DNA of 64,000 nucleotides. Source: Azonexus hydrophilus. Its GTDB lineage: Bacteria > Pseudomonadota > Gammaproteobacteria > Burkholderiales > Rhodocyclaceae. Below, piece after piece: positions 21,064 through 53,165 of this stretch (positions within the stretch are counted from its first letter, which is position 1; each line of letters begins with the position of its first letter). The position numbers and the translations under genes are program-made. The notes beneath the pieces were generated by a model, which was not told the DNA's origin, made no database searches, and worked only from the letters and a program-made list of their open reading frames with translations. The DNA is taken from positions 62,001 to 126,000 of the forward strand of contig NZ_CAJHOB010000007.1 of the NCBI RefSeq assembly GCF_905120355.1, written 5' to 3'.

Positions 21064-21090
21064 CGGCACGACTTGCGAGGAACATTGCCC

Positions 21091-22974
21091 ATGGAAAAGA
21101 AAGATCAATGGAACATTGGCTACTGGATCGTCGCCGGCCTGTTGCTGCTGACGCTGCAGAACTACTGGCAGGCGGCCAAGACCGTCGAGCCCGTGCCCTA
21201 CAGCGAATTCGAGAAGGCGCTGGCCGAGGGGCGCGTCGCCGAAGTGCTGGTGGCGGACCGCACGGTCACCGGGCGCCTGAAATCGCCGGACAGCCGGGGC
21301 AAGACCACCATCGTGGCCACCCGTGTCGAACCCGACCTGGCCGAGCGGCTGTCCAAGTACGACGTGCCCTATGCGCGGGTGGTGGAAAGCACCTGGCTGC
21401 GTGATGTGCTCTCCTGGATTCTGCCGGCGGTGGCCTTCTTCGGCGTCTGGTTCTTCCTGTTCCGCCGCTTCGCCGAGAAGCAGGGCATGGGTGGTTTCCT
21501 GAGCATCGGCAAGAGCCGTGCCAAGGTATTCATGGAGAAGAACACTGGCGTGACCTTTGCCGATGTCGCTGGCGTCGATGAAGCCAAGGCGGAGTTGGTT
21601 GAGATCGTCGATTTCCTCAAGAATCCGCAGGAGTATGGACGGCTCGGGGCGCGCATTCCCAAGGGCGTGTTGCTGGTCGGCCCACCGGGCACCGGCAAGA
21701 CATTGCTGGCCAAGGCTGTTGCCGGCGAGGCGGCGGTGCCCTTCTTCTCCATCTCCGGATCAGAGTTTGTCGAGATGTTCGTCGGCGTGGGTGCGGCCCG
21801 TGTGCGCGATCTGTTCGAACAGGCGCGTGCGCAGGCGCCGGCGATCATCTTCATCGATGAGCTGGATGCTTTGGGCCGCGCACGCGGTGTCGGAGGACCG
21901 ATCGGTGGACACGACGAGCGTGAGCAGACGCTGAACCAGTTGCTCACCGAAATGGATGGCTTCGACAGCTCGGTCGGGCTGATCATCCTTGCAGCCACCA
22001 ACCGGCCGGAGATCCTCGATCAGGCCTTGCTTCGCGCCGGTCGCTTCGACCGTCAGGTGCTGGTGGACCGTCCCGACAAGAAAGGTCGCCTGGATATCCT
22101 GAAGGTCCATGTCAAGAAGATCACCCTGGCCCACGGTGTAGATCTGGAACAGGTGGCGGCGCTGACCACCGGCTTTTCCGGCGCTGATCTGGCCAATCTC
22201 GTGAACGAAGCAGCGCTGAACGCGACGCGGCGCAAGGCGCAGGCTGTGGAACTGCAAGACTTCACCGCCGCCATCGAGCGCATCGTGGCCGGCCTGGAAA
22301 GGAAGAACCGTGTGCTCAATCCGAAGGAGCGGGAAACCGTGGCCTATCACGAGATGGGGCATGCGCTGGTGGCGCTGGCGCTGCCCGGCACCGATCCGGT
22401 ACACAAGATTTCAATCGTTCCGCGTGGCATCGGTGCACTCGGCTACACCCTGCAGCGGCCCACCGAAGACCGATTTCTGATGACACGTGCCGACCTGGAG
22501 CACAAGATCGCCGTGCTCCTGGGAGGGCGCGCGGCTGAGAAGCTCGTGTTTGGCGAGCTGTCCACAGGGGCTTCAGACGATCTCGCGCGGGCCACCGACA
22601 TCGCCCGCGACATGATTACGCGCTTCGGCATGGATGAGGGCTTGGGGTACGTTGCTTTTGAGGCACAGAGGCCGCGTTTTCTTGATGCGCCTGAACTGGT
22701 ACAGGGTGGCTGCCGGGTAGCCGAATCGACTCAGACACGCATCGACCAAGCCATCCGTGACATCGTGATGGGTGTGTTTGATCGTGCATACCGAATTCTC
22801 GAAATTAACCGAGAAGTACTGGAGCGATGCGCGCGCGAACTGCTCGCACGGGAAACGCTGGATGAATACAGCATCCGGCAACTGACGCAAGGGCTACAGC
22901 TCGAATCCCCATGTCACAGCGGCCCAACTGCCGGAGCCATTACTTCCTCTGTGTCCCAAGGAGCCACCTCATGA
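21091..22974 (+). CDS. ftsH: ATP-dependent zinc metalloprotease FtsH (stress-locus copy)
   Basis: 627 aa. The two N-terminal membrane helices (about 10-28 and 109-130) flank a small periplasmic domain. The AAA domain has Walker [19 protein letters not shown] (near 197), Walker [13 protein letters not shown] and an SRH ([20 protein letters not shown]). The M41 protease domain has HEMGH (near 420) for zinc. All catalytic residues are present. The C-terminal tail ([20 protein letters not shown]) is unlike the chromosomal FtsH as I know it. A second, locus-borne FtsH is a hallmark of these stress islands. Its stop overlaps the thioredoxin start (ATGA). Confidence 0.95.
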
Positions 22975-50740: not shown

Positions 50741-51670
50741 TTACAAAGCGCCAGCGATTTCGTCGCGGCTGACGACGGCGGTACCAAGTTTGCCCACCAC
50801 AATACCTGCCGCCACGTTGGCAACGCGAATGGCTTCTGCCCATTCCGCACCCGCCGCCAGCATCACCGCCAGGGTAGCAATGACAGTATCACCGGCACCG
50901 GAGACGTCGTACACCTCCCGCGCCAGGGCTGCCTGGTGGTAGGTGTGCCCGTCGGTCAGCAGGCTCATGCCTTCCTCGCTGCGGGTGACGAGCAAGGCAT
51001 CCAGCCCCAATTCGCCGCGCAGCTTTTCTGCCTTCTGCAACATATCCGTTTCCGAGTGCCAGCGACCGACGACACCGGCAAGTTCGGCGCGATTCGGCGT
51101 CATCACCGTGGCCCCGGCATACTTGCCCCAGTCATCGCCCTTGGGATCGACCAGCACCGGCTTGGCGGCAGCACGCGCGAGGCGGATCATCTCGCCGATA
51201 TGCGTCAGCCCACCCTTGCCGTAATCGGATAACACGACAATGTCACAGTGCGCCAGCTGCCGCTCGAACTCGGCCAGCTTGGCCCGCAGCACTTCATGCG
51301 ACGGCGTGGTTTCAAAATCGATACGCAGCAGCTGCTGCTGTCGGCCGATGACGCGTAATTTGACCGTGGTATCGATCTCGGCATCGACCTGCAGATGGGC
51401 CGCAATCCCGCCTTCCTGCAACAGACGCTGCAGGGCACGACCGGCATCATCCTCGCCCACCACCGAAATCAGCGCCGTCTGCGCGCCCAGCGCCGCCGCA
51501 TTGCGGGCCACGTTGGCGGCGCCACCCGGGCGCTCTTCCAGCCGTTCAACCTTGACCACCGGCACCGGCGCTTCCGGCGAGATGCGGCTGACATCGCCAA
51601 ACCAGTAGCGGTCGAGCATCACATCGCCAACGACGAGCAGGCGCACCTGCGCAATTTTTTCCAGCATCAT
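50741..51670 (-). CDS. hldA: D-glycero-beta-D-manno-heptose-7-phosphate kinase
   Basis: 309 aa. A PfkB-type sugar kinase: SPEAPVPVVKVERLEERPGG and AANVARNAAALGA near the N-terminus, and the catalytic GAGDTVIATLAVML near the C-terminus. The cytidylyltransferase-like second domain of HldE is absent, so this is the monofunctional HldA form and a separate hldC is needed. ATG 51670 lies 2 nt after the ancestral lapB stop at 51673, so the two were tightly coupled before the lapB nonsense codon. ATG 51667 or GTG 51676 are alternatives. Confidence 0.94.
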   Translation of the reverse strand: MMLEKIAQVRLLVVGDVMLDRYWFGDVSRISPEAPVPVVKVERLEERPGGAANVARNAAALGAQTALISVVGEDDAGRALQRLLQEGGIAAHLQVDAEIDTTVKLRVIGRQQQLLRIDFETTPSHEVLRAKLAEFERQLAHCDIVVLSDYGKGGLTHIGEMIRLARAAAKPVLVDPKGDDWGKYAGATVMTPNRAELAGVVGRWHSETDMLQKAEKLRGELGLDALLVTRSEEGMSLLTDGHTYHQAALAREVYDVSGAGDTVIATLAVMLAAGAEWAEAIRVANVAAGIVVGKLGTAVVSRDEIAGAL

Positions 51671-51744
51671 GTTCACAAATTCTGATCGAATTCTTCGTTA
51701 CGGCGCGGCGGCGTGCTTTCCCAGTCGCCACAGGCTGGGCAGCG

Positions 51745-52845
51745 CTAGTAATACTGGCGGGCCTTGAAACCGCAATGGTTGCACCGATAGCGGGACAACC
51801 GTCGGGTGTAGTTCTGGATGATGGTCCGCGCCAGCTCCAGGTCCCCCTGGCTGTCCGGTGTCGCCAACGGCAGGCGCGCACTCATCAGCTTTTCCAGACC
51901 GACCAGACTCGGATGGCGCTGCAATTCGGCCTGCACCAGACGGTAAGCCGCCTCCGTACCTTCGCACTCCAGCACCAACTGGTACACCACCTCGATCAGA
52001 TCGAGCGAGGGGTAATGCTCCAGATAGCCACGCAACAGGGCCACCCCTTCAGCCCGGCGGTCCAGCTTGCGATAGGCCTCCAGGAGACGATGTGCCAGCA
52101 GCGACAGATAATCGGGATCCTGCTGCTCGACCCGCTGCCAGGCGGCAATCGCGGCTTCCGTCTGCCCTTCCTGGGCCAGCAGATCGCCCAGCAGCACGTT
52201 GGCCCGCACGCAGTTACGGTTTTCCCGCAAGGCAGCGGCCAGATGCTCTCGCGCCGCGTCGCTGCGCGACCGCATGATGTCGCCAGCGGCCAGCTCGCAG
52301 TAATACTCGGCCACTTCCTTCGGGCTGGCGATTTCCGGCAACTCACGGGCAAGATCAATGGCTTTCTGCCATTCCTTGCCCAGTTGGTAGATTTCCAGCA
52401 GGTAACGCTTGGCCTCCGTGGCCTGCGGCGTATCCTGCAGCCGGTTGAAAATCTCTTCCGCCCGATCAAGCAGGCCCGCCCGGAGAAAATCCTGCCCCAG
52501 TTCGATCATGGCGTGCAGACGGTGCTTTTCTTCGACATCGGGCAAATCGAGCAGATTCTGGTGCATGCGGATGGCACGCTCCGTTTCACCACGGCGGCGG
52601 AACAGGTTGCCCAGAGCGAAATGCAGCTCCACCGTCTGCGAATCGACGCGCGCCACTTCAAGGAAGGAATCGATGGCCCGATCTGGTTGTTCGTTCAACA
52701 GGAAATTCAGGCCGGTGAAATAGGAGCGCGGCAGTGCCCGCGATTCCTGCACCACCTGCCGCATGTCGATGCGTGCAGCAATCCAGCCCAAGGCAAAAAA
52801 AACTGGCACCAGAATGAGTTGCCAGTGGTCAAGAAAATCGTTCAT
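51745..52845 (-). CDS. lapB: LapB (YciM) LPS assembly protein, cut short by an in-frame TAG
   Basis: 366 aa to a TAG at 51747-51745. An N-terminal anchor helix (about 8-22) is followed by about nine TPR repeats (40-340) and the rubredoxin-like metal domain. That domain starts YRCNHCGFKARQYY, then the stop replaces the expected Trp. Reading on in frame gives RCPACGDWESTPPRRNEE and ends at TGA 51673, 2 nt before hldA. The total of about 390 residues equals normal LapB length. The second CxxC of the metal site is thus lost by one TGG-to-TAG change. LapB controls LpxC degradation with FtsH and needs this domain in E. coli. It may be a real mutation, a sequencing error or a suppressed stop. Confidence 0.9.
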   Translation of the reverse strand: MNDFLDHWQLILVPVFFALGWIAARIDMRQVVQESRALPRSYFTGLNFLLNEQPDRAIDSFLEVARVDSQTVELHFALGNLFRRRGETERAIRMHQNLLDLPDVEEKHRLHAMIELGQDFLRAGLLDRAEEIFNRLQDTPQATEAKRYLLEIYQLGKEWQKAIDLARELPEIASPKEVAEYYCELAAGDIMRSRSDAAREHLAAALRENRNCVRANVLLGDLLAQEGQTEAAIAAWQRVEQQDPDYLSLLAHRLLEAYRKLDRRAEGVALLRGYLEHYPSLDLIEVVYQLVLECEGTEAAYRLVQAELQRHPSLVGLEKLMSARLPLATPDSQGDLELARTIIQNYTRRLSRYRCNHCGFKARQYY

Positions 52846-53165
52846 GCGTGTGCCGGCGTATCCATATCAGTGGCCGCAGCGGCTGCCGGAGCATGCAACA
52901 GGCTCTCCACCCGCGCCATCTCCGCCCGCTCCAGTTCCCGCTTCAGACGGGTGATTTCACGACCTTGCCGGTACAGTTTACCGACCAGGGCCAGCATGCC
53001 GAGGAAGGTGCCGGCAGCAAAAAAAATCAGCAGCACCACGACCAGCGGCGCTTCCCATTGGTAATCGGCAGCCAGCTTCAGGTTAACCAGCTCGGTGTTC
53101 TGAATGGCAAAAAGGATCAGTACAGCAAAGACGACAAAACGCAGAATCCAGATGATGGCGGTCAT
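52842..53165 (-). CDS. lapA: LapA-domain inner-membrane protein
   Basis: 107 aa. Two membrane segments (about 3-22 and 42-63) flank the conserved NTELVNLKLAADYQWEAPLV, followed by a cytoplasmic coiled-coil (GREITRLKRELERAEMA). LapA (YciS) partners LapB in LPS assembly. It overlaps lapB by 4 nt (ATGA). Only 18 nt separate its ATG from an upstream terminator, so its own promoter must lie within or before ihfB unless read-through supplies it. Confidence 0.92.
   Translation of the reverse strand: MTAIIWILRFVVFAVLILFAIQNTELVNLKLAADYQWEAPLVVVLLIFFAAGTFLGMLALVGKLYRQGREITRLKRELERAEMARVESLLHAPAAAAATDMDTPAHA

Follow-up and report, generated by a model that had tools for sequence, protein, structure and literature searches.

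An apparently private in-frame stop codon within the rubredoxin module of LapB in an Azonexus hydrophilus assembly

Introduction

The window analysed here (a stretch of 64,000 nucleotides from an assembly of Azonexus hydrophilus) contains a lapB gene whose reading frame is interrupted by a TAG codon between the two halves of the rubredoxin-type metal site of the encoded protein. This raises the question of whether the stop is genuine and, if it is, whether the strain makes a LapB devoid of its rubredoxin module and with what consequences for lipopolysaccharide (LPS) control.

In E. coli, lapB forms an operon with lapA (PMC8745692), and every part of LapB, including the rubredoxin domain, has been reported to be essential (PMC8745692, PMC7730581), so that a fixed truncation would be surprising if the protein had an equal role in Azonexus. 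In Salmonella, the rubredoxin part was reported to be dispensable for LapB-LpxC binding under the conditions of that study (PMC11025326). Betaproteobacterial LpxC, for example that of Neisseria, is described as lacking a C-terminal degron, and Ght, the Neisseria homologue of LapB, has been proposed to promote the synthesis of LPS with no need for FtsH (PMC12444477). A premature-stop allele has been reported in another gene of this circuit, yejM, in E. coli LH530, with reduced LPS (PMC13333357). This background is drawn from parts of six reports (PMC9356133, PMC13333357, PMC12444477, PMC11025326, PMC8745692 and PMC7730581), and no natural truncation of LapB was described in the titles and abstract openings covered by the literature search.

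Results

The lapB open reading frame begins with an ATG and lies on the minus strand (52845-51745), encoding a 366-residue protein that, according to profile and structure matches, contains the membrane anchor, the TPR region and the first half of the rubredoxin metal site. It ends at a TAG (51747-51745, minus strand), codon 367 of 390, which is located outside any homopolymer. The first CxxC motif (CNHC, 51772-51783) precedes the stop, and after it the same frame continues (51744-51673) for 23 further family-like codons, RCPACGDWESTPPRRNEEFDQNL, which include the second CxxC (CPAC, 51730-51741), until a TGA (51675-51673) that is followed two bases later by the ATG of hldA (51670). Read past the TAG, the frame has 390 codons, the usual length of LapB, and the genome contains only one lapB match. 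The sequence-only reading of this locus had placed the stop at a conserved Trp between the two CxxC halves, with a family-like continuation up to hldA and an intact frame of about 390 residues; its coordinates were right, the stop does truncate the rubredoxin module, and the length agrees with the relatives, given that 65 of the 70 other LapB matches in the genus align over query residues 1-390 (the remaining five over 3-390, 1-389 (twice), 1-382 and 190-390).

The truncated protein is still recognized by the LapB equivalog model NF008755 (500.6 bits, cut-off 430, covering profile positions 3-367 of 388), the best LapB model, which gives 545.3 bits for the read-through form. The Pfam family Zn_ribbon_LapB has no match at E 0.001 in the 366-residue protein, and reaches 42.2 bits (cut-off 25.7) when the TAG is read as a residue. 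The rubredoxin-type metal site, composed of two CxxC motifs and the Trp, is therefore incomplete in the 366-residue product and complete only in the read-through frame, and the likeness of the codons after the TAG to the LapB family exceeds chance. E. coli LapB (YciM; PDB 7t6d, 8v24 and 4zlh) aligns over residues 10-364 and, with the TAG read as a residue, over 10-383, including the CxxC...W.CPxC motif; in 7t6d a Trp occupies the position equivalent to the TAG. The E. coli protein is complete, whereas the frame described here is interrupted at that Trp.

As in the E. coli operon, lapA lies directly upstream of lapB (52842-53165, minus strand; PF06305, 55.5 bits with a cut-off of 28, in the translation of 52845-53165). 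Downstream, hldA (50741-51670, minus strand), identified by its open reading frame and a profile match, codes for RfaE domain I, the heptose-7-phosphate kinase. In the near relatives that have hldA beside lapB (L002-L005), the terminal codon of lapB is a TAG, with a G after it, and several bases separate it from the downstream start. The lapB-hldA spacing in this window (51670-51680) is thus unlike that of the near relatives, and hldA may have a different translation signal. If translation of hldA were coupled to that of lapB, an early lapB stop, 72 bases short of the terminal one, could lower it.

A search of the genus found a LapB match in 71 of 76 genomes (the exceptions being G007, G021, G025, G028 and G035), among them all 51 with a completeness of 90% or more and a contamination of 5% or less. 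The genome under study has one internal TAG and the other 70 have no internal stop, so no related genome examined has a lapB ending at this site. The site is a Trp codon, one base away from TAG, in all 46 genus relatives counted (of the 47 loci taken, L021 was left uncounted because it is cut by the end of its contig). It is also a Trp in 79 of the best 80 named records, a set that overlaps the genus set, as one contig apparently stands in both, under L032 (Azonexus hydrophilus) and under G008; the remaining record, L088, ends upstream of the module. Of the named records, the MAG Betaproteobacteria bacterium UBA7395 comes nearest (80% identity); Azonexus hydrophilus and Azonexus sp. (both 77%) come next, and then records of Rhodocyclaceae and Dechloromonas. 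At the order level, LapB was matched in 284 of 300 genomes, including this one. Among the matches listed there and in a separate search, stops reported in five other genomes (G217, G301, G246 and G113 in the former, G054 in the latter) were considered as parallels and rejected, since in each case LapB simply ends there, with its CxxC...W.CPxC intact. Judged by these alignments, the stop is private to this assembly among the relatives compared.

An old stop should have left traces of decay in the codons that follow it. Invariant columns were defined position by position from 44 of the 46 relatives (L026 and L169 were left out because their identity, below 65%, suggested indels), with the length set to 390 residues in the script, so that this comparison says nothing about length; of the 163 columns in residues 1-345, 8 are changed, as is 1 of the 17 in residues 346-366 and none of the 16 after the stop. 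Against eight near relatives, the tail shows a dN of 0.11-0.15 and a dS of 0.56-2.16 (computable for seven), with 0.13-0.17 and 0.84-1.19 for the LapB body, respectively, suggesting that the tail has evolved like the rest of LapB, with about equal ratios. With a synonymous distance of about 1 to the nearest relatives, a tail left unconstrained for much of that time would be expected to lose several of its 16 invariant columns; as none is changed, an old loss seems unlikely, and the state of these columns is what would be expected of a young stop; for the same reason, relaxed constraint on the rubredoxin module was discarded as an explanation. The conserved tail would be compatible with a mutation of recent date, with a base error and with readthrough.

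A long-standing short LapB, maintained by selection and offset by an accessory FtsH or by altered LPS control, could draw on two observations. The first is that the tail has five amino-acid differences in 23 codons to each of the eight near relatives, versus two in the 21 codons that precede the stop, although these are few codons and several of the last residues of the tail are also variable among relatives. The second is the presence of an accessory second FtsH in the window (21073-22974, plus strand, from a profile match), in addition to the canonical one on contig C10; two FtsH matches at E 1e-100 were found in only 2 of 23 genomes of the genus, some of them incomplete, namely this one and G015. 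However, besides the absence of change in the invariant columns after the stop, G015 combines two FtsH proteins with an uninterrupted LapB, and LpxC is single and uninterrupted in the genome under study. A selected short LapB is thus extremely improbable. The second FtsH had been proposed in the sequence-only reading to compensate for the loss: the accessory protease is real, but a link with the lapB stop is not established and, given that G015 keeps LapB uninterrupted, no claim of compensation is possible. Another partner, a YejM/LapC-like protein, was considered through its DUF3413 domain, which is present in a 625-residue protein at L242 (1444-3321; 41.6 bits, cut-off 27.1). This domain was found above the cut-off in only 10 of the 76 genus genomes, including this one, and among 14 controls only in E. 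coli; a link to the lapB stop could not be drawn.

The TAG could also be genuine and yet be read through (by a suppressor tRNA, recoding or leaky termination), with some full-length LapB being made, as the conserved tail would allow. A tRNA family search of the genome found 48 places, and ARAGORN on the covering loci gave 43 distinct tRNA sequences, none of them with a CUA anticodon. This set is incomplete, as tRNA-Asp and tRNA-Glu were not among the tRNAs found either, and therefore the CUA negative is also incomplete, a gap that leaves some room for a suppressor. The two tRNAs are missing in spite of a completeness rating of 99.99%; their genes are either missing from the assembly, perhaps as an unassembled repeat, or were missed by the searches. 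Against readthrough, the release factor RF1 is uninterrupted and above its cut-off, and pyrrolysyl-tRNA synthetase gave no match above the cut-off, only two weak ones below it of the kind that most control genomes also give. Furthermore, a programmed readthrough or recoding site would be expected to be conserved, and the other 70 LapB matches in the genus all lack the stop. Readthrough is therefore considered very unlikely, and the suppressor tRNA raised earlier as an alternative found no support among the tRNAs identified.

The main rival to a real mutation is an error in the consensus or base calling, or a variant carried by a minority of the culture or sample sequenced, in which case the organism would make a full-length LapB. 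The stop is a singleton in a strongly conserved protein, its codon is one base off that of the relatives, and the tail shows no clear sign of decay, all of which an error would also explain. On the other hand, the site is not in a homopolymer and the genome (2.88 Mb in 59 contigs) is rated 99.99% complete and 0.04% contaminated. The quality of the assembly was also gauged through a homology comparison, in which 94 comparable places, within 364 kb of the genome, were defined as matches at 60% identity or more to frames from stretches of four relatives (chosen by codon bias, so that a few are perhaps not genes); the match covers at least 90% of the relative's frame in 87 of them. Four places were flagged, three of which have the stop near an end of the relative's frame (in the last few residues or within the first 30), the fourth being lapB. 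It is thus the only one of the 94 with a stop inside conserved sequence, which disfavours a generally poor assembly, and the absence of such stops in the other 93 lowers, without abolishing, the chance of a base error. An ab initio search for interrupted frames by codon bias proved unusable, as it left the lapB tail itself unflagged, and was replaced by this comparison; likewise, a comparison of the window with the open reading frames of relatives returned many antisense and over-extended frames with stops and did not enter the counts. On the sequence evidence, a base error appears to fit nearly as well as a real mutation and keeps a substantial probability, although below that of a genuine stop.

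Discussion

The explanation favoured here, with moderate confidence, is a recent nonsense mutation of a single codon in lapB, private to this strain; a lone nonsense codon is probably an ordinary kind of event. According to this explanation, ribosomes would terminate at codon 367 and release a 366-residue LapB that would keep the membrane anchor and the TPR scaffold and lose two of the four metal-ligand cysteines together with the conserved Trp. The rubredoxin module would be unable to form, and LapB activity would probably be reduced or altered. In addition, translation of hldA would perhaps be lower, as ribosomes would come off the mRNA 72 bases short of the terminal stop that lies beside its start.

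The effect of such a change on LPS is more difficult to anticipate. The expectation from E. coli, that loss of the module disturbs LPS homeostasis, may not transfer to Azonexus, in view of the degron-less LpxC of Neisseria and the FtsH-independent role suggested for Ght (PMC12444477); together with the Salmonella binding result (PMC11025326), these reports make the expected LPS effect uncertain in both sign and size. Ght of Neisseria meningitidis, which on its description belongs to the same family and is also betaproteobacterial, differs from the protein described here in that suggested role and in that truncation is not described for it in the part of that report considered. The yejM allele of E. 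coli LH530 is likewise a nonsense mutation within this regulatory circuit, although it affects a different gene and a reduction of LPS is reported there (PMC13333357). It is also conceivable, but unlikely, that the strain lives with a LapB that is functional in spite of lacking the rubredoxin module, either because the module is dispensable in this betaproteobacterial lineage or because its loss is offset elsewhere, for instance by the accessory FtsH.

If the base were an error, a non-existent short LapB would enter the annotation. A real base, as is favoured here, would make this strain a natural test of the need for the rubredoxin module in bacteria other than enterobacteria, for which the role of LapB has yet to be settled.
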